Below are positions 16,103 through 31,080 of a stretch of 38,110 nt of DNA, in pieces. The number at the start of each line of letters is the position of its first letter. Position 1 is the first letter of the stretch. Both the position numbers and the translations under genes were made by a program. Origin of the DNA: Candidatus Gastranaerophilales bacterium (GTDB taxonomy: Bacteria > Cyanobacteriota > Vampirovibrionia > Gastranaerophilales > Gastranaerophilaceae); the NCBI GenBank assembly GCA_944326615.1, contig CALVEO010000013.1, forward strand, positions 1-38,110, written 5' to 3'. The notes beneath the pieces are model-generated. The model saw only the letters and a program-made list of their open reading frames with translations, had not been told where the DNA came from and searched no databases.

Positions 16103-18781
16103 TTATTTACATCCGAGAGGTCCTTCTTCCTCTTTGCTGTGTTTGAATTCGATTACTGCCTGAGCTGCAGCAAGTCTTGCCTGCGGTACTCTGAACGGTG
16201 AACAAGATACATAGTTCAAGCCTATTCTGTGGCAGAATTTAACCGATGCCGGATCTCCGCCATGTTCTCCACAGATTCCGCGTTTTAGATGCGGTCTGAC
16301 TTTCAGAGCTTTATCAAGAGCTATCTTCATCAACTGTCCGACGCCTTCCTGATCAAGTGTCTGGAACGGGTTAGCAGGCAGAATTTTTTGTTCTACATAG
16401 TTTTGCAAGAACTTGCCTTCCGCATCGTCTCTTGAGTAACCGAATGTCATCTGCGTTAAATCGTTTGTTCCGAATGAGAAGAATTCTGCGTATTCTGCAA
16501 TTTGATCTGCTGTCAAAGCTGCACGCGGAATTTCAATCATTGTACCGAACATATAATCAACCATTACGCCTTTTTCATTCATAACTTCTTTTGCTACACG
16601 TTCAAGAACTCCTTTTACTGTTTTAAGTTCATTTACGTGCCCTACAAGGGGGATCATAATTTCAGGTTTTACATCTACCCCTTCTTTTTTCAAATCACAG
16701 GCAGCATAGAATATTGCTTTAACCTGCATTTCGTTGATTTCAGGATAAGTTAAACCTAAACGGCATCCTCTCAAGCCCATCATCGGGTTAGATTCAGACA
16801 TTGCTTCAACGATATTAAGAAGTTTTTCGTCTTCTTTGTAATCTTCGCCTTTAGCTTTTTTAGCAGCAACTTTAGCTATTAATTCTTCCTTATCAGGCAG
16901 GAATTCATGAAGCGGCGGATCAAGAAGTCTGATTGTCATTGATTTTTCTCCCAATGCTTTAAACATTGCATAGAAATCGCTGTACTGCATTGGAAGAAGA
17001 TGATCAAGAGCTTCTTTTCTTGCTTCCGGCGTACCTGCAATAATCATTTTTTGAACCCATGGAAGTCTTTCAGGATCCATAAACATGTGTTCTGTACGGC
17101 ATAAACCTACGCCTTCAGCACCGAGTTCAAGAGCTTTAGCAACATCTGCAGGAGTGTCTGCATTAGCTCTAACGCTCATTAGTTTAACTTCATCAACCCA
17201 TTTGAAGAGTTTTTGGAAGTTTTCATCCATTTTAGGCGGTATTAAATGAACTGCTCCAGCCATAACTTCACCTGTTCCGCCGTCGAGAGAAATAATATCA
17301 TCCTTATGGTAAACAGTTCCGTCTGCGGATGTCAGAGTTTCATTTTTAAGGTCGATTTTTAAATCTTCACAGCCTGCAACACAGGGTTTTCCCATACCTT
17401 TTGCAACAACGGCAGCGTGAGAAGTCATACCGCCTCTGAGTGTCAGAACACCTTGAGATTCAATCATACCATGAATATCATCAGGACAGGTTTCAATTCT
17501 GACTAAAATTACTTTTTCTCCTGCTTTCCCGCGTTCTGCGGCTTCTTCTGTATCAAATACGATTTTACCAACTGCAGCGCCAGGTGATGCTGCTAAACCT
17601 TTTGCAATCTGTTTTGCTTCTTTTTTAGCTGCAGGGTCAAAGTCAGGAAGAAGTACCTGATAAAGCTGGTTTGCATCAACAAGTTCAATTGCTCTTTCTT
17701 TATCTATGATGCCTTCTTCACACATTTCAACTGCAATTCTCACAGATGCTTTAGCAGTTCTTTTACCGTTACGTGTCTGGAGGATATACAATTTTCCTCT
17801 TTCAATTGTAAATTCCATATCTTGAACATCTTTGTAGCCTTTTTCAAGTTTTTTAGCAATATCAACATATTGTCTGTATAAATCCGGCATTTCATGTTCA
17901 AGTTCTGCAATCGGTTTCGGTGTTCTTATACCTGCAACAACGTCTTCGCCTTGAGCGTTTGTCAAATATTCACCATAGAATTTGTTTTCACCGGTTGACG
18001 GATTTCTTGTGAAAGAAACACCTGTTGCGCAGTCATCTCCCATGTTCCCGAATACCATTGTCTGTACGTTAACTGCAGTACCGTAATTATGGTCAATTTT
18101 ATAGTGATCTCTGTATGCTACTGCACGAGGAATGTTCCATGATCTAAATACTGCTTCAATTGCTTCTTCCAATTGAACGTAAGGATCCTGCGGAAATTCT
18201 TTCCCTGTTTCTTTTTTGATTAATTCTTTATAAGGTTCGATTAAAGATTTCCAATCTTCTGCTGTTAAGTCAGTATCTGATTTATAGCCTTTTTCTTCTT
18301 TAATTTTGTCAAGATAATCTTCAAATTTTTGTCTATCGATTTCCCAGGCAACAGAACCGAACATTGTTAAAAATCTTCTGTAAGAATCATAGCAGAATCT
18401 CGGGTTGTTTGTAAGTTTAATCATGCCTTCAACAGTTTTGTCGTTTAACCCCAAATTCAAAATTGTTTCCATCATACCGGGCATTGAAAGTCTTGCACCG
18501 GATCTTACAGAAACAAGCAGCGGGTTTTCTGCATCACCGAATTTTTTACCTGCCTGTGTTTCAACAACTGCAAGAGCGGTTTTTACCTCATCCATTAAGC
18601 CTGATGGCATTTTGTTGCCATGATTAATGTAATCCATACAGGTTTCTGTTGTAATTGTAAGCCCCGGCGGAACAGGAAGACCTAAATTAGTCATTTCTGC
18701 AAGGTTTGCACCTTTGCCGCCAAGGAGATTGCGCATATCAGCGTTACCTTCTTTGAATAACCATACGCGTTTTTCAGTCAT
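16103..18781 (-). CDS. ppdK: pyruvate, phosphate dikinase
   Basis: An 892-aa enzyme interconverting pyruvate, ATP and Pi with PEP, AMP and PPi. The N-terminal ATP-grasp domain (NLLGGKGANLAEM) is followed by the swivelling domain with the phospho-histidine motif GGMTSHAAVVAKGMGKPC. With the start at 18781 the catalytic His falls at residue 455, the same number as in the well-studied clostridial enzyme. The C-terminal TIM-barrel ends with GICGEHGGDP and the catalytic Cys region NYVSCSPFRVP. The frame is open 11 codons further upstream, but AAAGGAG is six bases before the chosen ATG. In anaerobes it supports PPi-linked glycolysis or gluconeogenesis. Confidence 0.96.
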   Translation of the reverse strand: MTEKRVWLFKEGNADMRNLLGGKGANLAEMTNLGLPVPPGLTITTETCMDYINHGNKMPSGLMDEVKTALAVVETQAGKKFGDAENPLLVSVRSGARLSMPGMMETILNLGLNDKTVEGMIKLTNNPRFCYDSYRRFLTMFGSVAWEIDRQKFEDYLDKIKEEKGYKSDTDLTAEDWKSLIEPYKELIKKETGKEFPQDPYVQLEEAIEAVFRSWNIPRAVAYRDHYKIDHNYGTAVNVQTMVFGNMGDDCATGVSFTRNPSTGENKFYGEYLTNAQGEDVVAGIRTPKPIAELEHEMPDLYRQYVDIAKKLEKGYKDVQDMEFTIERGKLYILQTRNGKRTAKASVRIAVEMCEEGIIDKERAIELVDANQLYQVLLPDFDPAAKKEAKQIAKGLAASPGAAVGKIVFDTEEAAERGKAGEKVILVRIETCPDDIHGMIESQGVLTLRGGMTSHAAVVAKGMGKPCVAGCEDLKIDLKNETLTSADGTVYHKDDIISLDGGTGEVMAGAVHLIPPKMDENFQKLFKWVDEVKLMSVRANADTPADVAKALELGAEGVGLCRTEHMFMDPERLPWVQKMIIAGTPEARKEALDHLLPMQYSDFYAMFKALGEKSMTIRLLDPPLHEFLPDKEELIAKVAAKKAKGEDYKEDEKLLNIVEAMSESNPMMGLRGCRLGLTYPEINEMQVKAIFYAACDLKKEGVDVKPEIMIPLVGHVNELKTVKGVLERVAKEVMNEKGVMVDYMFGTMIEIPRAALTADQIAEYAEFFSFGTNDLTQMTFGYSRDDAEGKFLQNYVEQKILPANPFQTLDQEGVGQLMKIALDKALKVRPHLKRGICGEHGGDPASVKFCHRIGLNYVSCSPFRVPQARLAAAQAVIEFKHSKEEEGPLGCK

Positions 18782-18855
18782 ATTCATCTCCTTTCTTATT
18801 CGTATAATAAACACTTTTTAATGTTTTTACTATAACACAAAAATAATATATCATG

Positions 18856-18884
18856 TTGAAAAATAAAAAAAAATACTTTATAAT
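18856..18884 (+). promoter_or_regulatory. consensus promoter upstream of the G10 tract and prepilin
   Basis: TTGAAA (18856-18861) and TATAAT (18879-18884) are 17 bases apart, close to the sigma-70 ideal. Transcription would start near 18891. AAAGGAG (18906-18912) and an ATG (18919) follow at proper spacing. Confidence 0.75.
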
Positions 18885-18918
18885 AATTATGTAGTTTAAT
18901 TTTTGAAAGGAGACTTAA

Positions 18919-18966
18919 ATGCGAAAAATTGATTATTCCGAAATGTCGGGGGGGGGGCACTTTTAG
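18919..18966 (+). CDS. short leader reading frame with G10 tract (prepilin start, out of frame)
   Basis: ATG 18919, preceded by a strong promoter and AAAGGAG, reads MRKIDYSEMSGGGHF and stops at 18964-18966. The run of ten G (18948-18957) sits in codons 10-13. With 11 or 8 G the same start would continue without a stop into the prepilin frame (ALLAGRRAVSQVV, then joining 19020) to give a 436-residue protein (11 G). With 9 G it ends after 19 codons. This is what a slipped-strand on/off switch looks like, although a simple pseudogene or an assembly error in the homopolymer is possible. Confidence 0.55.
   Translation: MRKIDYSEMSGGGHF
18948..18957 (+). repeat. homopolymer tract G10
   Basis: Ten consecutive G in a very AT-rich region, 29 bases into a well-initiated reading frame. 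Long G tracts are rare by chance at this base composition and are classic sites of slipped-strand mispairing. Confidence 0.9.
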
Positions 18967-19007
18967 CTGGCAGAAGGGCTGTAAGTCAAGTCGTTTCCAG
19001 TAATATC

Positions 19008-19069
19008 ATTGCGCATTTATTGCGCAATCCGGAATTTGTCCTAAAAAGATCGCGCAACATATGCGCGAT
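19008..19069. repeat. pair of REP-like hairpins
   Basis: Two palindromes with the same geometry follow each other. ATTGCGC/GCGCAAT (19008-19014, 19022-19028) and ATCGCGC/GCGCGAT (19049-19055, 19063-19069) each have perfect 7-base arms and 7-base loops and share GCGC cores. Such twin GC-rich hairpins are the hallmark of REP/BIME-type elements. They lie within the open frame that leads into the prepilin. Confidence 0.6.
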
Positions 19070-20228
19070 GACAGGTCTTAATATTCAATTTCTTTCTCTT
19101 TTTGAATATGATGTCATTATATGGCAGGTTTTTATTCGGATGCTAGGATACTATGGCAGTAATGCAGTAGGACGTATCGTAAAAATTTTCCCTCTCTTGG
19201 GAGAGGAATTTATCAGAGGTCAGGAAGCCCAGAAGGCAAGAGGGCAAGCTGGTTTAGAAGATAGGAAGGTAAGAAGGTATGAGGATAGGCCATTTACGGT
19301 AAAAAGCTTATCCTCCTATCCTCCTACCCTCATATCTTCTGATAACCCTCTCCCTCAATCCCTCCCCCAGGGGAGGGAAGCAGAAAAATGCGCTTCACGT
19401 TTCACTCTTCACACTTCACTAAAAAAACAAACCGCCTTTACGTTGGCTGAAGGTGCTACGCACGTAGTCCACTTTGACGACATTCGTCAAGCCGCGTTTA
19501 ATTTGGTGAAAGGTAATACGCACGTAGCCCACTTTGACAAAATTCGTCGCGCTGCGTTCACTTTGGCTGAGGTGTTGATTACCTTAGGAATTATCGGTGT
19601 TGTCGCGGCCATGACTATGCCTGTTTTGGTTGGAAGCTACAGAAAAACGGTTACAGAAACAAAGTTACAAAAATTTTATTCTATAATGAACCAGGCAATA
19701 AAACTTGCAGAAGTTGATTATGGTGAAGCTTCTATGTGGGTGCCGCAGCGCGGTGATGATAACGGTGATTTTGGTGTATGGTATAACACATATCTTGACA
19801 AAAACATAAAATCATTGAGTAAAAACTATTATGATCTTTATTATCATGTAGCATTTTCTGACGGAAGCGGTTTTGCAGCATATATTCCTAAAGCACCTTC
19901 GGATGGAACTGCCATGGGGCCGGTAAGAGCATATATATTTTACTGTACTGATTATAAATACTGCTCTATGCCTACATATGAAGGAACTAGTGGAACAACG
20001 TTTGATGAGAGAAATTCATACGATGGAAAACATACATTCCTGTTTTCAATTTGCTCAGATGGAAGATTCGCTGCATCAGGATGTGTTTCCGCAGATGATA
20101 ATTATTATTCCAGAGATGTGTTACTAAGCGGTTGTGCAGACTCTGACCCGCACAAGAGGCACCTTTGTACTGCTCTTATTCAGCATGACGGCTGGAAGAT
20201 AAGCAAAGATTACCCTTGGATAAAATAA
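19020..20228 (+). CDS. prepilin-like protein with repeat-laden 5' region
   Basis: The genuine protein begins near residue 178 of this open frame. RRAAFTLAEVLITLGIIGVV is a type IV prepilin/type II pseudopilin cleavage and hydrophobic-helix motif (cleavage before Phe180, Glu at mature position 5). It is followed by about 200 residues of pilin-like globular domain with cysteines and the C-terminal end QHDGWKISKDYPWIK. The first 177 residues are encoded by repeats: REP-like hairpins, a purine/pyrimidine repeat and two extra copies of the cleavage motif at Phe140 and Phe160. No ribosome site suits any start between 19020 and 19557; the only well-made start is ATG 18919, one base out of frame through a G10 tract. 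Expressed pilin therefore needs a frame change or an unrecognised start. It would be processed by a PilD-type peptidase and placed in the inner membrane. Confidence 0.7.
   Translation: MRNPEFVLKRSRNICAMTGLNIQFLSLFEYDVIIWQVFIRMLGYYGSNAVGRIVKIFPLLGEEFIRGQEAQKARGQAGLEDRKVRRYEDRPFTVKSLSSYPPTLISSDNPLPQSLPQGREAEKCASRFTLHTSLKKQTAFTLAEGATHVVHFDDIRQAAFNLVKGNTHVAHFDKIRRAAFTLAEVLITLGIIGVVAAMTMPVLVGSYRKTVTETKLQKFYSIMNQAIKLAEVDYGEASMWVPQRGDDNGDFGVWYNTYLDKNIKSLSKNYYDLYYHVAFSDGSGFAAYIPKAPSDGTAMGPVRAYIFYCTDYKYCSMPTYEGTSGTTFDERNSYDGKHTFLFSICSDGRFAASGCVSADDNYYSRDVLLSGCADSDPHKRHLCTALIQHDGWKISKDYPWIK
19190..19376. repeat. dispersed repeat block shared with 11.7-12.0 kb
   Basis: This block holds a CCTCTC/GAGAGG palindrome (19191-19206), AGAAGGCAAGAGGGCAAGCT, an imperfect inverted repeat of about 34 bases (about 19257-19290 against 19312-19345: AGAAGATAGGAAGGTAAGAA and its near-complement), and CCCTCCCC/GGGGAGGG (about 19358-19375). 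Matching strings occur at 11750-11775 and 11935-12001 (AGGGCAAGAGGGCA; CTTACCCTCCTATCTTCCTA). It interrupts the 5' part of the prepilin frame without creating a stop. Confidence 0.65.
19431..19571 (+). repeat. 60-bp tandem repeats carrying the prepilin cleavage motif
   Basis: Units start at 19431, 19491 and 19551 (third partial). Each begins with codons for A-F-(T/N)-L-(A/V)-(E/K). Units one and two match at 46 of 60 positions, and the third continues as the real pilin helix. Between motif copies lies a segment with its own dyads (CTACG-CA-CGTAG and TTGACGA-CAT-TCGTCAA in unit one). Encoded spacers read GATHVVHFDDIRQ and GNTHVAHFDKIRR. Confidence 0.85.
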
Positions 20229-23388: not shown

Positions 23389-26300
23389 ATGGCACTGACT
23401 GTAGATGAAATTGCTGAAATCCTCAACACTATGCGTGTTGAAAATGAACATAATGTTGAAAATTTTGAAAAAGTTTTAACCGGAATAAATAACAAGCTTG
23501 AGTTAATGGCGGAAGATAACGAAGCTACTGATTTAATTAAGCTATATTTATCCGAGTTGAAAAAAATTGTAGAAGAAAAGCATAACAATGCAAATGACAG
23601 ATTCAGAACTCTGGAAAATTCTCTTAATAATCTTCTTTCATCACAGGAACAGTTTGCTAAAACATCAGAGCTAAGAGATTTGTTCCATGTTCTCAGTGCC
23701 AGTTTTGACACATTTTCAGGAGAATTTACAAGCCAGACAAGTACGCTTGAAACAGTTAATGACAAACTCGCCCAAATAGAAGAAAGCGTTTTTGATAAGG
23801 GGGAACTCGCTTCGTTATTGAACGGTTTTGCGTCAGATTTGTCTGAAATGAACAGTGGAATTGACAATTCATTTAAAAATATTGAAACTTCTCTTTCCGA
23901 TGCAGTTTTTGCGATTAACCGTTTAAATGCGCTGGATAGCAGGATTTCATCTCTAAGTGAAGATATAAATGCAATTCCTTCAAAAATTTCTTTTGCCGGT
24001 GTTGAAGAAAGAATTGAGAATTTTCAAAATATTATAAATTCTATTAGAGAAGCTGTCTCTGAAATTCCCGCGTTGAATGCCGGAATGCTTTCAAGCAGGT
24101 TTACGGATATAGAAAATTCATTTAAAAATATTGTTACAGAACAAAATTTTTTGGATTTTAAAGAAAATCTTGCTGATTTTGTACGGCAGATAAGCGATAA
24201 TGCAGTATCTATAAGCGAAGGTATAAATGCTAACAGGCAGAGAATAGAAAATATTTTAGCATCAATAAATACTCTTGATTACAAAAATGATTTTAATGCT
24301 GTTTCAGAAAAAATCAGCGCTCTTGAAGATGCTGTAAAAGGTATTTCCCAAAGCAGTGTTTATGAAATTCAAAACCTCGGAAGAACTTTGTCATCAGTTG
24401 TAACAGATTCGGATTTTGCAGGGTTTAAGGCTGAACTTGCAGATTTTGTGCAAAAAATTATCGATAATTCTTCTGCATTAAATTCAGAACTTTCATATAG
24501 TACGGAAAGAATTGAAAATATTCTTTCAACAGTTAATTCGCTGGATTATACTAATGATTTTGAGAACATTTCAAAAGAAATATCTGAATTAAAATCAGCG
24601 CTTAGCGACAATTTATCATTGTCAGAAAGTGTTAATAGCTTAATAGGCAGTGCAAAGAGTGAAATTACACAAAAGCTTGACGGATTTGAGACATCTTTGT
24701 CAACAATCGTAACAGATTCGGATTTTGCAGGGTTTAAGGCTGAACTTGCAGATTTTGTACAAAAAATTATTGATAATTCTTCCGCATTAAATTCAGAACT
24801 TTCATATAGTACAGAAAGAATTGAAAATATTTTAACTACAATAAAATCTCTTGATTTCAGAGATGATTTTGCAGCTATTGAAAGTCGTATAAATGATTTA
24901 AAAGAAACTTTTGATGCAGGCTCAAAAATCAATTATACAAATTTGTCTGAACAAATATTTTCTATTAAAGAAAGTATGGAAAGCAGTTTCACACAAATAG
25001 ATTCGGAACGGGATGCTGTATATTCGGATTTTAAAACTCAGTTAACCGGGATTTTTGATAATCTTGATAATCTGATAAAATCAAATCCGCAAAAATCTAT
25101 AGATGAACTTTCATCTCTTGTGCTTAGTTTATCTGAAACGGCATCTGTTTTGCGAAATGGTATAACAGAAGATATTCAGGGAGATTACGGGGATTTAAAA
25201 TCAAGCATAAATGCTGTTGCTGAAAATTTACAGATTGTAAAAGCAGATTTAATTGCCAAAAATTCTGATTTGTATAATTTGTCATCGCAAAATTCAAATC
25301 TTTTAGAAGGTAAAATAGATTTGCAGATAAAAACTCTTGAAGATTTAAAGACTGAATTCAGCGATGCAGGCAGGTTTGATTTAGAAAAAATTACGGCATC
25401 TGTTGAGAGTTTATATGCTGATATTTCAGGAATTATTGCAGATTTGAAAGAAGATGCAAATACAAATTATGAGGCCGTAAAATCGTATGTGGAAGAATTA
25501 TCTTCTGCTTTGAGCGGAATTAAGGATGAAATTTGTAATTTATCCGGGCAAAATTCAAATATTTTGAGCGGCAAGATGGATTCTCTATCAGATGGCGTGA
25601 ATGAGTTTCATGAAGAATTTAAGCAGGCATGTGCAAGTGATGCGGTTAATTTTTCAACGATTTCAGGTGGTATAAATGAAGTCTCAGAAAAGATTGACGG
25701 TTTACAAAGCAGTTTGGCGCGGGATAATGACTTGAACATGCAAACTTTGAAATCTTTGATGGATGAATTGTGCGTAAAACTTTCGTCTGATCTGGATATT
25801 CAAAAAGAAATTTTTTCACATTCTTTGCAGGGAGATGAACAAAAACGTCTTGTACAGCTTCAAAATATTGCAGGTGACGTGAAAAATTTAGAGTCATTAA
25901 TTGCAGAAGGAAATGAAACTTACAAAAATACTATAGAAGAAAATATAAAGAGTATAAGAGAATACATTGCTGAATTGAGTAATTCTGTTTATGAATCACG
26001 TATGGACAGTGATGATAAATTCAGTACAAAATTGGAGGCTCTGGATGCATTAAATCATGGGTTTGAGAATTTTGTTGTATCAGTTAACAATCAAATCCGG
26101 AATGTATTGGACACTATAATTTCACTTGATGTATCCGGTCAAAACAGTGTAATACAGAATGAAGTTAATAATATAAAAGTTCTTTGTGAAACGATATCCG
26201 CTTCTTTGAATGAATCCCAAAAACGTAAAGACGAATTAACACAAATTATTTCGTCTTTAATGGATAGTGTGCTTAAAAAAGAAGATATAAATGAAATATC

Positions 26301-29300
26301 ATTTAAGCTTGATGAATATACTGATATATTGAATTCATTAAAAGATTTTATTGAGGCATCTTTTGCAAGTAATTCTTCTGATATAAATTTATTATTCGAA
26401 AAACTGGAGACCTCTTTTGCGAATATTTCGTCAAAACAAGACTTTTTGGAATTTAAGAGTGAACTTTCAGGCTTTTTGCAGACGATTACAGATAATGCAA
26501 ATATATTGAATGTTGATTCTACATTTAATAAAGAAAAAATTCAGGAAATTTCTGAAAAAGTTTCTACACTCGAAATTCCGGATTATTCATACGACCTTGT
26601 ACAAATTTCTTCTAAAATAGATGATTTACAGGAGCTTTTTGCAAATTCTTCTGCTTCGAATTATGAGGGGATAAGCGCTAAGCTTGATGATATAAGTTCA
26701 AAAATAGAAGAAAACGGTAAAGACGAAAAAATAACAGGAAAGTTAGATGAATTTTCAGAGCTTATTAACTCTTTAAAAAATATTGTTTCTGCTTCTATAG
26801 ATACATCATCAACAGAAGAACAATTTTTAAGAATAGAAGATGCGTTTTCCAGAATTGTAACAGAAGAAGATTTTACAAATTTCAGAATTGATTTTGGTGA
26901 TTTTATACAGAAAATTCTAGATAATGCGGATGTTATTCATTTGAACAGCGAAGCAAACAAAGAGCAAATTAATAAAATTGTTGAAAAACTCGCCGAACTT
27001 GATTACACACAAAATTTTGACAGTATAGAAGGTAAATTAACCGAAATTCAGACTTCTTTTGAAAATAATTCTAAAACGAATTATGAAAATATAATAAACG
27101 AGATACAGGATTTTAGAAGTAATTTAGCAGAAAAGTTTTCAGACACAGCTGCAAAAGAGAATTTTGACAGGCTTAATTTATCTCTTGCTGAGTTATCTGA
27201 TAATGTTCAGATTCTTTCAGATATATCATCGCATAAGTCAATAGAGCTGCTTGATAAGATAGCCGGACAAATTCAAAGTTCTGCAAATGAAATTACTGAT
27301 AATGTAAACAGCGGTATAAAAATTAATATTGATGATTTGAAAATTTCTCTTGCAAATGCGATTAATGAGTTGAATACTGTTAAAAATGATTTTACAGAAA
27401 AAAGCGATAATGTAACTTTCAGTGTAACCTCAGGATACGATAATCTAAAATCCTCAATTGAAAATATATTGAGTGCATTTAATTCTCTAAATGATTATTT
27501 AAAAGATGATTATACAAAGAGTACGCATTTAATTTTGTCTGAGATTGAGGAATTATCCGCAAAAGCCGGAGAACTTAAGGATGAGATAAATAAATTTACT
27601 TCTGATTATATTGAGAGAGTGTATAATATATCAGAAGAAATATCTGATAAATTAGAAGGTTTGTCTGTCGGGCTTTCCGGTAGTTTGACGGCAGAGGTTT
27701 CGGAGTTTAAAAATATTCTTTCTTCAGTTTCTGATAATTTGCATAACATGTACGGTGAGTTAAAAGATTCAAATGAACTCCAGGTAAATGAGCTAAATGG
27801 CATTTCAGGTAATATATCAGAATTCCGCGGGCATGTTGATGAAATTATTCAGAATTTAAAAGATTATATAACTGAGTTGAATGTAGCGTCAAAATCTTCT
27901 AAGTCTTTGAGTGACAGTAAATTTTCTGAAAAGCTGCTTTCTCTTGAAAGTGCAGTTGTGAACAGCGCTGATGCTTATGAAACAAAAATTGAACTTTTGC
28001 AGAATAAAATTGCGGAGTTTGTTCAAATTGTAGAAAATTCCTCATCAGATACTGAGGCAAAAATTTCATCCTCTGCACAAGAAATTAATTACATTAAAGA
28101 TGAACTTACATCAGTTTCAGAGCTTATAAATGCTGTTAAACTTTCTTCTGATGAAAAAACTTCTCAGATAATTTCACTTCTTGATACAAGGCTGGATAGT
28201 ATTACTGTTTCTGTTAATGAAATTGCAGATAATGCATTAAAAGGTATAAATTCATCAATATCTGATAATCTTTTGTCTGTAGATGACAAGCTTACTGTTT
28301 TACAAAATACAATTGATTTGTTGCGCGGGACTAATTTATCGGAGTTCGCAAATAATATTGATGATAAAATTGTTGAGATAAAACAGGAATTAGGACTGGT
28401 TAATGCAGATATTGCAGATGCATTACAGAATAAATCTGAAGATATTCTAAGAGCTTTGGAACCGGTTAAAACAGCTATTGATGAGTTTGCGGGTTATGAT
28501 TTTGAAAAATTGTTAACTGATATAAAATCCGAGCTTGAAACTTCTTTCATGAATTTCAGTGTGGATGTAAATGGCGAACTTTCCGCAAATTCTGAATCGG
28601 TTTTAAGATTGGAGCAGGCATATAAAGAAACATTTAACAAAATTTCAGTTATTGAAGATTGTGTATCTGAAGATATACAAAACAGTATAGAACTTTTAAA
28701 TGTTACAATTGAAACTAATACACGTAATTTAAAATGCGGTTTTGAAGAGAAACTCGATGAATATATAAATGATTTGAGAGTGCATCTTGATGAAGTTTTG
28801 CATGACACCAGAACACTTGATTCAATTGAAAATTTAAAAGATGAAATTTCTGTAAAATTAGATTCAGTTTTGTCAGAGCAAAGCAGCATTGCGGAACAAG
28901 CAGATATTATTTCAGCTGGAATTTCTACACTTGGTGATGATATAAAAAATTATGTTCAGTCAGCCTGTGAAAATACTATTGATAAATACAGTCCGATTCA
29001 AAGTAAAGAAGCTATAGAGGCTTTACATCAAAAAATAGATACATTTGTAGATTCTACGAATAATGAAGATATTTTGGAAGCTTTATTGGAAATCGAACAG
29101 AAATCCGGTAAATTAGGTGCTGATATCAGTGAAACTGTTCATGAAATAATGGATAAAATTGAAACATTTGAAAAGGATAATTCGTTAATTCTTGCATTTC
29201 ATGAGCTTGCAGCGGAGATTGATTCATTTAAAGATAATTCAGAGCTTAATACTGCATTGAAAGCTTTGTCTGAAAAAATTGATATTTTAGCCGCAGATGA

Positions 29301-31080
29301 ATCCATAAGTGAAATACGTGATGATATTAGTGAAGCCTTTGACAGTGTAAATTCAAAAATAGATGTTCTTGTTGCGGATACAAATGTAGAAGATTTAAAA
29401 GGACAGTTAAAAGACGCATTTGACTCATTGAATGATAAAATAGATATAATTGCATCTGATGCTGAAACGGCTGATTTGAAAGATGAACTGCATGGTGCAT
29501 TTGAATCTTTAAATACTAAAATAGATATAATTGCGACGGATACGGCTGTAGATGATTTAAAAGATGAATTGCGTGGAGCATTTGAATCTTTAAATACTAA
29601 AATAGATATAATTGCTGCAGATACATCCGTTGATGATTTAAAGGATGAATTAAACACAGTATTTGAAACATTAAATAACAAAATAGATATAATTGCATCT
29701 GATAATGCTGTAGATGATGTAAAAGATGAATTAAATGATGTATTTAATGCGTTAAATGCAAAGATAGACATAATAGTATCTGATACCACTGTTGAAGATT
29801 TAAATGAGCAGCTAAATGATGCGCTTGAAACTGTAAATTCAAAAATAGATATTCTTGCCTCTGATACTTCAATTGAAGAATTGCATGAAAAACTTGATGA
29901 AGTTCATCAAACAGAAGATAGAGTTTCAGAGATGCTCTCGACTTTGCATGAAAAAGTTGATGCAATAGCTTCGGATGGCTCTGATTTTAATATTGAAGAT
30001 GAAATTGATGATATTAAATCTTTAATTTTTGAACAGAGAAAATATTTTGAAGCATCTTCTGATGAAAAAGCAGCGGCAATTGATAAATATCTGCGTGATG
30101 TCTTGCTGAAGCTTGATAATGTTGATCTTGAAAAAAATTCTGAAGATATAAAAGATTCCATTACAAATGCCCTTGTCTCGCTTTTTGAACAGGTATCTTT
30201 TGTAGAAGAAAGTGAAGATATAAAGGATTTTGTAGAAGAAAAGACTGATGCCATTAATCAAAGTCTTCTTGAAGTTCAAAATCAATTGAAACAAATTGCA
30301 AGTTCAAATGATGAATATAATTATTCATATACTCTGCAGGATGTTGAGACTGATATTGCTAAATTAAGGATGGCAATAAACAATATGTCCGGCAATGATT
30401 TTGCAAGTTTTTCGGATGATATTAAAAAGATTGTAAGTTCTGTAGAAGGTCTTGAATCATCCTTAACACAGGATCAAATGGTTGATTTAAAAGGCGATAT
30501 TGAAAAACTTAATGATGATATATTGAGTATAAGTTCAAGAACAAACAAACTTCTTTTAACATCTGATGAATCTTATAAAGCTTTAAACGATGGTTTAAAC
30601 AATTTTAGCAGTCTTGTATATAAACTTGAAGATCGAATTAATTATCTTGATAATACAGAAGCCAGCCAGAGACTTGAAAGAAAAATTGATAATATTCATT
30701 CAATGGCTGTTGCATCTGCAAATGCTGATAAAGTATTTCATCAGGTAATGATGTATTTAGGTGAGTGGATTGACTCTACGACTGAAAATATCGCTAGTAT
30801 TACCGATAAAACTTCTGAAATATCTAAAATCAAAAAAAATCTTGCAGAGCTTAAAGAGGCAATCCCTGAAAAAACGGAAATTCTTGATGAGATTGAGAAT
30901 AAGTTTGAAGAACAGGAACTGCGTATAGACAGATTAGAAATGAAATTAGAGAAAATTTTATCGGCACTTGAAGAAAAAGATGATATGATGTTAAATAGAA
31001 AAGTGGATAAAATCGAAAAATTAATATCCAGACTTGGTACCAATATAGAAAAACTGACATCGTATGTTGATGAAGAATAA
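23389..31080 (+). CDS. giant repetitive coiled-coil protein of unknown function
   Basis: 2563 aa, one unbroken frame of 7.7 kb. It has no signal peptide, no membrane segment and very few cysteines, and is acidic and rich in Ser, Asp, Glu, Ile and Leu in heptad-like spacing, so it should be a long cytoplasmic rod. A module of about 75 residues occurs five times, starting near residues 249, 338, 441, 1014 and 1157 (pattern V-T-x-x-x-F-x-x-F-+-x-x-L-x-D-F-V-x-x-I-x-D-N). Copies two and three are almost identical in DNA. Seven 27-residue repeats run from residue 1974 to 2162. The C terminus is a denser Lys/Glu coil ending SRLGTNIEKLTSYVDEE. Roles in cell shape, polarity or chromosome organisation are possible but unsupported. 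It overlaps the next gene. Confidence 0.85.
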   Translation: MALTVDEIAEILNTMRVENEHNVENFEKVLTGINNKLELMAEDNEATDLIKLYLSELKKIVEEKHNNANDRFRTLENSLNNLLSSQEQFAKTSELRDLFHVLSASFDTFSGEFTSQTSTLETVNDKLAQIEESVFDKGELASLLNGFASDLSEMNSGIDNSFKNIETSLSDAVFAINRLNALDSRISSLSEDINAIPSKISFAGVEERIENFQNIINSIREAVSEIPALNAGMLSSRFTDIENSFKNIVTEQNFLDFKENLADFVRQISDNAVSISEGINANRQRIENILASINTLDYKNDFNAVSEKISALEDAVKGISQSSVYEIQNLGRTLSSVVTDSDFAGFKAELADFVQKIIDNSSALNSELSYSTERIENILSTVNSLDYTNDFENISKEISELKSALSDNLSLSESVNSLIGSAKSEITQKLDGFETSLSTIVTDSDFAGFKAELADFVQKIIDNSSALNSELSYSTERIENILTTIKSLDFRDDFAAIESRINDLKETFDAGSKINYTNLSEQIFSIKESMESSFTQIDSERDAVYSDFKTQLTGIFDNLDNLIKSNPQKSIDELSSLVLSLSETASVLRNGITEDIQGDYGDLKSSINAVAENLQIVKADLIAKNSDLYNLSSQNSNLLEGKIDLQIKTLEDLKTEFSDAGRFDLEKITASVESLYADISGIIADLKEDANTNYEAVKSYVEELSSALSGIKDEICNLSGQNSNILSGKMDSLSDGVNEFHEEFKQACASDAVNFSTISGGINEVSEKIDGLQSSLARDNDLNMQTLKSLMDELCVKLSSDLDIQKEIFSHSLQGDEQKRLVQLQNIAGDVKNLESLIAEGNETYKNTIEENIKSIREYIAELSNSVYESRMDSDDKFSTKLEALDALNHGFENFVVSVNNQIRNVLDTIISLDVSGQNSVIQNEVNNIKVLCETISASLNESQKRKDELTQIISSLMDSVLKKEDINEISFKLDEYTDILNSLKDFIEASFASNSSDINLLFEKLETSFANISSKQDFLEFKSELSGFLQTITDNANILNVDSTFNKEKIQEISEKVSTLEIPDYSYDLVQISSKIDDLQELFANSSASNYEGISAKLDDISSKIEENGKDEKITGKLDEFSELINSLKNIVSASIDTSSTEEQFLRIEDAFSRIVTEEDFTNFRIDFGDFIQKILDNADVIHLNSEANKEQINKIVEKLAELDYTQNFDSIEGKLTEIQTSFENNSKTNYENIINEIQDFRSNLAEKFSDTAAKENFDRLNLSLAELSDNVQILSDISSHKSIELLDKIAGQIQSSANEITDNVNSGIKINIDDLKISLANAINELNTVKNDFTEKSDNVTFSVTSGYDNLKSSIENILSAFNSLNDYLKDDYTKSTHLILSEIEELSAKAGELKDEINKFTSDYIERVYNISEEISDKLEGLSVGLSGSLTAEVSEFKNILSSVSDNLHNMYGELKDSNELQVNELNGISGNISEFRGHVDEIIQNLKDYITELNVASKSSKSLSDSKFSEKLLSLESAVVNSADAYETKIELLQNKIAEFVQIVENSSSDTEAKISSSAQEINYIKDELTSVSELINAVKLSSDEKTSQIISLLDTRLDSITVSVNEIADNALKGINSSISDNLLSVDDKLTVLQNTIDLLRGTNLSEFANNIDDKIVEIKQELGLVNADIADALQNKSEDILRALEPVKTAIDEFAGYDFEKLLTDIKSELETSFMNFSVDVNGELSANSESVLRLEQAYKETFNKISVIEDCVSEDIQNSIELLNVTIETNTRNLKCGFEEKLDEYINDLRVHLDEVLHDTRTLDSIENLKDEISVKLDSVLSEQSSIAEQADIISAGISTLGDDIKNYVQSACENTIDKYSPIQSKEAIEALHQKIDTFVDSTNNEDILEALLEIEQKSGKLGADISETVHEIMDKIETFEKDNSLILAFHELAAEIDSFKDNSELNTALKALSEKIDILAADESISEIRDDISEAFDSVNSKIDVLVADTNVEDLKGQLKDAFDSLNDKIDIIASDAETADLKDELHGAFESLNTKIDIIATDTAVDDLKDELRGAFESLNTKIDIIAADTSVDDLKDELNTVFETLNNKIDIIASDNAVDDVKDELNDVFNALNAKIDIIVSDTTVEDLNEQLNDALETVNSKIDILASDTSIEELHEKLDEVHQTEDRVSEMLSTLHEKVDAIASDGSDFNIEDEIDDIKSLIFEQRKYFEASSDEKAAAIDKYLRDVLLKLDNVDLEKNSEDIKDSITNALVSLFEQVSFVEESEDIKDFVEEKTDAINQSLLEVQNQLKQIASSNDEYNYSYTLQDVETDIAKLRMAINNMSGNDFASFSDDIKKIVSSVEGLESSLTQDQMVDLKGDIEKLNDDILSISSRTNKLLLTSDESYKALNDGLNNFSSLVYKLEDRINYLDNTEASQRLERKIDNIHSMAVASANADKVFHQVMMYLGEWIDSTTENIASITDKTSEISKIKKNLAELKEAIPEKTEILDEIENKFEEQELRIDRLEMKLEKILSALEEKDDMMLNRKVDKIEKLISRLGTNIEKLTSYVDEE
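24400..24522 (+). repeat. 123-bp near-identical internal duplication, first copy
   Basis: Matches 24709-24831 (offset 309 bases, 103 codons) with only about four differences, all but one of them at silent third positions or close to it. It encodes VTDSDFAGFKAELADFVQKI and onward. The near identity marks a recent duplication or gene conversion within the giant coiled-coil gene. Confidence 0.9.
24709..24831 (+). repeat. 123-bp near-identical internal duplication, second copy
   Basis: Second copy of 24400-24522. The sequences around the copies (24523-24708 and after 24831) are diverged, so only the central module is recent. Confidence 0.9.
29308..29874 (+). repeat. seven tandem 81-bp repeats (27-residue units)
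   Basis: Units start at 29308, 29389, 29470, 29551, 29632, 29713 and 29794. The consensus is D-D-L-K-D-E-L-x-x-A-F-E-S-L-N-x-K-I-D-I-I-A-x-D-T-x-V. Units three and four are nearly identical at the DNA level (GATTTAAAAGATGAA, TTTGAATCTTTAAATACTAA), and outer units are more diverged, which suggests expansion from the centre. Twenty-seven residues is one short of four heptads, so each unit would shift the coiled-coil register. Confidence 0.92.

Follow-up and report, generated by a model that had tools for sequence, protein, structure and literature searches.

Why would a near-consensus promoter, a ribosome-binding site and a start codon lead toward a pilin gene whose reading frame is broken, a few codons later, by ten consecutive G? 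This question is raised by a type IV prepilin gene in a 38,110-nucleotide (nt) stretch of DNA (hereafter the window; assembly GCA_944326615.1, contig CALVEO010000013.1) from a Candidatus Gastranaerophilales bacterium. The host genome is a metagenome-assembled genome (MAG) of 1.96 Mb in 78 contigs, 98% complete, from a non-photosynthetic gut cyanobacterial lineage. An initial annotation of the window had proposed that the G10 tract is a phase-variable switch. Here we find that the locus is not special: it belongs, with dozens of others, to a family that spans the genus, in which the frame offset is near-uniform and the tracts share a strand polarity. From the sequences, we consider it fairly probable that these tracts form a genus-wide default-OFF contingency set, dozens of loci per genome, in which DNA-level slippage would act as a switch within cleavable pilin leaders. 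All genomes compared are assemblies, mostly MAGs, and the sampling took in stretches around tracts together with sample stretches.

A G10 tract separates the start codon from the prepilin frame

The promoter, the Shine-Dalgarno (SD) sequence AAAGGAG, the ATG at 18919 and the run of ten G are all present where the initial annotation had placed them. As assembled (G10), the frame from this ATG encodes MRKIDYSEMSGGGHF and then stops, after 15 codons, as had been described. Translation at different tract lengths (n) yields an open reading frame (ORF) of 436 codons when n is 11 and of 435 when n is 8, and one of 14-28 codons at 7, 9, 10, 12 and 13, in agreement with the claim that one more G, or two fewer, would open the frame into the prepilin. 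The final ~224 codons match the Pfam families N_methyl (PF07963, above cut-off, E 8e-5) and DUF6613 (E 4e-10), and the FTLxE N-methylation motif and hydrophobic helix of a type IV prepilin are both present. As at slipped-strand loci, the tract is a homopolymer within coding sequence whose length decides the frame. Of the seven in-frame start codons located downstream of the tract and ahead of the prepilin motif, none is preceded by an SD-like sequence, consistent with the earlier statement that no other start in this frame has a ribosome site. The window holds one tract of G8 or longer, versus 0.06 expected from shuffles.

Nearly all prepilin tracts from six species are one G short of frame

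To place this locus in its family, we use a set of 158 prepilin-linked tracts from six species, with the window excluded. Their lengths are 10 (140 tracts), 11 (11), 9 (6) and 12 (1), and in 147 of them no length other than n = 2 mod 3 opens the prepilin frame. This requirement spans all lead phases (phase 0 in 72, 1 in 60 and 2 in 26 genes) and both the genes that read the run as G (G-sense, 112) and those that read it as C (C-sense, 46, or ~29%). Nearly all prepilin tracts are one G short of frame: 145 of the 158 are out of frame as assembled, and of the 13 in frame, 8 are so through n=11. A genome-wide test of independence is limited by the relatedness of the leaders, which single-linkage clustering at 65% reduces to two clusters. 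Places listed by the flanking motif described below, in five species (G004 being common to both species sets), carry G10 in 90 of 100 cases.

Beyond the tract, the shifted frames stay open over 8-306 codons up to the prepilin. In 65 of the 158 genes, no ATG, GTG or TTG lies in frame after the tract and before the prepilin motif, so that these depend on the upstream ATG; an in-between start with an SD-like site occurs in only 23. Upstream of the ATG, TATAAT is found in 88 of 156 tract-prepilin genes (10% background), TGnTATAAT in 46 of 156 (1% background), and an SD-like sequence, which was also a selection criterion, in 152 of 156. Where a prepilin gene lacks a tract, its leader is short and in frame, as with MKRAFTLSEV.

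A prepilin-like class with FTLAEMMVVMLI (L317 (G025), L088 (G000) and L222) is in frame at G10. Judged by eye, its members carry YadA-head-like SIAIG repeats, and the C-terminus of L317 resembles a chaperone (S74-like) domain. The class looks like a prepilin-anchored adhesin set, predicted to be ON by default.

Tracts of at least 8 G number 74 in the host genome, and the 73 outside the window are of length 10 (63), 9 (5) and 11 (5). Other genomes of the genus contain from 0 to 179 such tracts each, with 11 or fewer in 6 of 33 genus genomes, and most genomes outside the family contain few. Four genomes of the same genus (G013, G023, G027 and G021) have 0-4 tracts despite MutS-family and, where searched, MutL genes; tract richness was lost or never gained in them. 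More distant relatives (L229, L286, L253 and L270) have G-tracts of 14-18, and those of L229 (n=14) and L286 (n=15) precede prepilins, out of frame.

Tracts in other genes are in frame at ten

Tracts with the same flanks also lie inside a few other genes, which from reading their sequences are glycosyltransferase-like, starch-synthase-like, or encode membrane proteins. Of the nine coding tracts outside pilin genes, eight leave their gene in frame at n=10, whereas the prepilins are in frame as assembled in 13 of 158 cases (Fisher p about 1e-7, with orthologue pairs shrinking the effective number). Two of the non-pilin tracts recur in a second species, again as G10 (L118 and L171; L119 and L171). 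Non-pilin genes with this motif are thus in frame at the very length, 10, at which most prepilin genes are out of frame; the modal length does not depend on frame, and the gene classes differ in how their frame is set against it.

Tract orientation goes with GC skew

On the G strand, the tract sits within an oriented motif, (T/G)C-G10-C(A/G)NT...AGCT. A C precedes the tract in 98%, C(A/G)NT follows it, and AGC lies 6-11 nt downstream in 90 of 112 G-sense and 35 of 46 C-sense genes, versus an 11% background. The reversed-motif control was near zero in 192 genomes. Across neighbouring tract pairs in the two best-assembled genomes, the strand of the G-run switches in 2 of 61 and the strand of the gene in 17 of 61. 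In the flanks, the strand that carries the G-run has a positive guanine-cytosine (GC) skew for 88 of 112 G-sense genes and for 34 of 44 C-sense ones, and C-sense genes therefore mainly run against the G-skewed strand. Tract polarity is a DNA-level property, which follows the G-skewed strand and not the gene, and the GC skew suggests that it reflects the direction of replication. The dnaA gene does not lie at the strand switch points and was therefore rejected as a marker of the origin for these polarity domains.

Tract length differs between close paralogues

Among 62 near-identical pairs, almost all of them paralogues within one genome, 12 have tracts of unequal length; L082 (n=9) and L084 (n=10), for example, have 2 mismatches in 175 nt of flank. 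The rate of 12 in 62 equals the expectation from a saturated 88/7/4 distribution. A search of IMG/VR with four DNA patterns returned no same-species copies with other lengths, and a pilin profile gave two distant loci.

Weighing slippage switches against the alternatives

How might such a family work? At the modal G10, the window gene would be one base out of frame and would yield only a 15-residue peptide, and replication slippage to 11 (or 8) would bring the ATG into frame with the prepilin, so that protein would be made only at these two lengths. Slippage may have its equilibrium at ten, with the default state of each gene set by its frame. Prepilin peptidase, the domain of which (PF06750) is encoded in the host genome, would then remove the leader bearing the Gly-run or Pro-run, and because the leader would be cleaved off, the mature pilin would be unharmed by the tract. 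Since the frame nearly always needs the mode plus one, most pilins would be off in most cells, with a small, changing subset on, and the benefit would be variation of the surface. Slippage in living populations would presumably be frequent and reversible. Of the switch originally proposed, a frame switch for the prepilin is well supported, by the frames of 158 genes and the lengths in paralogues; on/off switching within a population is a prediction.

Several observations weigh against default-OFF slippage switches. First, the initial annotation had held that a single fixed length would argue against a switch, and between species this is nearly what is found (140 of 158 tracts are exactly 10), yet close pairs do differ. 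The lengths are also far narrower than among the relatives of Bifidobacterium breve (8-13; PMC9187656) and far narrower than in Campylobacter, where 9G makes up 53% and 10G 26% (PMC6321876). Second, one duplicate pair with 4 mismatches in 227 nt has n=9 in both copies, which hints at slow change, and because of this pair the rate of change cannot be fixed. Third, 2 mod 3 is strongly preferred over 0 mod 3, which simple random slippage leaves unexplained, though shared descent contributes. Finally, the MutS1 and MutL genes are present; on this ground, loss of mismatch repair was rejected as the cause.

A more tentative version, to which we give clearly less weight, moves the emphasis from the switch to the DNA. 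A polar (T/G)C-G10-C(A/G)NT..AGCT element on the leading-type strand might be held at ten G by a replication-linked mechanism, and default-OFF pilins, together with a smaller default-ON surface-glycan-like set, might have been built around it through their frame at 10 or 11.

Because tract length and offset are so uniform, the main rival is programmed recoding. The DNA would stay at G10, and either RNA polymerase (adding one nt in the RNA) or the ribosome (by a -1 frameshift) would restore the frame in a fixed share of cases, giving a constant low level of each pilin. Such a mechanism would require the near-fixed length of 10 and the near-uniform plus-one offset that are seen across species, and 10 nt is close to the length of the RNA-DNA hybrid. 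We regard it as improbable all the same: runs of both G and C sense occur, as do all three codon registers, and a ribosomal slip would not work equally well on all of these; polarity tracks the G-skewed strand and not the gene; loci in frame at n=11 exist; and transcriptional insertions are absent from G/C runs in E. coli and Buchnera, where they are confined to A/T runs (PMC5574713).

Slightly less probable again is a polar DNA element in the stricter sense, a recognised site (an inserted element, or a signal for recombination, replication or segregation) that is held at its length by the way it is bound or copied, and to which the frames have adapted. The oriented flanks conserved in both gene orientations, the locked strand, the near-zero reversed-motif control, and the in-frame copies at the same site of glycosyltransferase-like genes in two species (L118 and L171) would all suit such a site. 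However, the copies sit mostly at prepilin starts instead of being evenly spread, and their frames sort by gene class, a sign of expression control; the polarity itself could stem from strand-dependent slippage.

It is very unlikely that the tracts are an assembly or sequencing artefact, with a true 11 read as 10. Homopolymers in short-read assemblies and MAGs can be mis-stated, and database lengths have differed from those of the true population (PMC9187656). Yet the eight non-pilin tracts in frame at 10 would be broken at 11, making a blanket under-call unlikely, and lengths of 8, 9, 11 to 15 and 18 are present in assemblies from several assemblers (judged by contig names). Together with these other lengths in the same assemblies, the in-frame G10 tracts led us to reject a global homopolymer under-call, and the uniform assembly error that the initial annotation had feared would undo its observation is improbable. 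Least likely of all, despite the many out-of-frame tracts, are frame-broken relics, or a downstream translation start with the tract as a mere upstream leader peptide, given the retained promoter and SD, the open shifted frames and the scarcity of in-between starts.

Relation to known phase-variable systems

Antigenic variation of gonococcal pilE proceeds by recombination with a guanine quartet, a different mechanism. The nearest precedent for slippage switches in pilin leaders is the pair of G-tracts in sortase-dependent pilus loci of B. breve UCC2003 (bbr_0113 and bbr_1889), likewise a gut commensal, in which the first pilus gene contains an internal G-tract of 9-12, the reference length is out of frame, and one-base slippage joins the gene halves (PMC9187656). 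There, 1-2 loci per genome, with lengths that range over 8-13 among strains, encode sortase pili and turn ON by losing one G (PMC9187656), whereas here dozens of type IV prepilin loci are fixed at 10, would turn ON by +1 or -2, include both G-sense and C-sense genes, and share an oriented flanking motif. Switching by replication slippage is proven in B. breve (PMC9187656), where pili and G/C tracts are thus established targets of slippage, while in Gastranaerophilales it is predicted from assembled sequence.

The poly-G/C phasome of Campylobacter is similar in its low-GC genome, many intragenic G/C tracts, narrow length peak and surface-related genes (PMC6321876). It differs from the present family, which has up to 179 tracts of 8 or more, a peak at 10G, the sizeable share of C-sense prepilin genes and a default frame that is uniform by gene class. 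Neisseria also has a large predicted simple sequence repeat (SSR) repertoire for surface structures, with 115 genes of N. meningitidis predicted as SSR contingency loci (PMC5084427), but repeat types and gene classes are mixed there, in contrast to one repeat type at one position, the prepilin leader.

What is new here is the scale, the fixed length, the uniform frame offset and the strand polarity. Phase variation in Gastranaerophilales was the subject of no paper in our literature search, from which most subscription journals were absent. If the tracts do act as slippage switches, they would be among the largest single-type repertoires seen, at up to 179 tracts per genome, and would sit in an uncultured gut lineage that is likely commensal rather than a classical pathogen; multi-locus phase-variable genomes appear pathogen-restricted, possibly through sampling bias (2025 review, PMC11868660). 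Pilins set one off the modal length, versus other genes set on it, would suggest a rule, open to testing, by which genomes encode default states, and the strand polarity would allow one to ask how replication direction controls homopolymer length.

Features of the locus and its surroundings

Table 1. Annotated features around the tract-prepilin gene, in window coordinates.
Feature	Position	Strand	Basis or remark
Pyruvate phosphate dikinase (ppdK), divergent neighbour	16103-18814	-	Pfam PPDK_N, PEP-utilizers; synteny anchor
Sigma-70-type promoter, TTGAAA (18856-18861)-17 nt-TATAAT (18879-18884)	18856-18884	+	11/12 consensus matches; best promoter-like site of the region
Shine-Dalgarno sequence AAAGGAG	18906-18912	+	Sequence
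Lead, 29 nt: start codon and first ten codons	18919-18947	+	Sequence
Oriented DNA motif TC-G10-CACTTTTAGCTG flanking the tract	18946-18969	+	Same oriented motif at tracts of G-sense and C-sense genes
G10 tract	18948-18957	+	Prepilin frame requires n = 2 mod 3 (8 or 11)
Extended leader (n=11 frame) with dispersed repeats	18958-19556	+	Sequence
Prepilin core, FTLAEVLITLGIIGVVAAM... to stop	19557-20228	+	Pfam N_methyl, DUF6613

The extended leader contains an inverted repeat (19265-19339) and two tandem 60-nt copies (19428-19487 and 19488-19547) derived from the prepilin start (AFTLAEGATHVVHFD...). Its dispersed, palindromic-type repeats keep the reading frame, and the leader repeats are common to many paralogues.

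With the neighbouring ppdK as an anchor for the syntenic site in other species, a G10 plus-one prepilin was found beside ppdK in six further species (L210, L211, L218, L221, L224 and L233), whereas in others the site has none. In L215 and L216, the gap next to ppdK lacks the whole prepilin cassette and is apparently an empty site. As the ppdK site is filled in some species and empty in others, prepilin cassettes seem to be gained and lost at fixed places. Elsewhere in the window (23389-31080), an ORF of 2563 residues with coiled-coil-like Pfam matches (Apolipoprotein, Baculo_PEP_C) probably encodes a large surface or filament protein.
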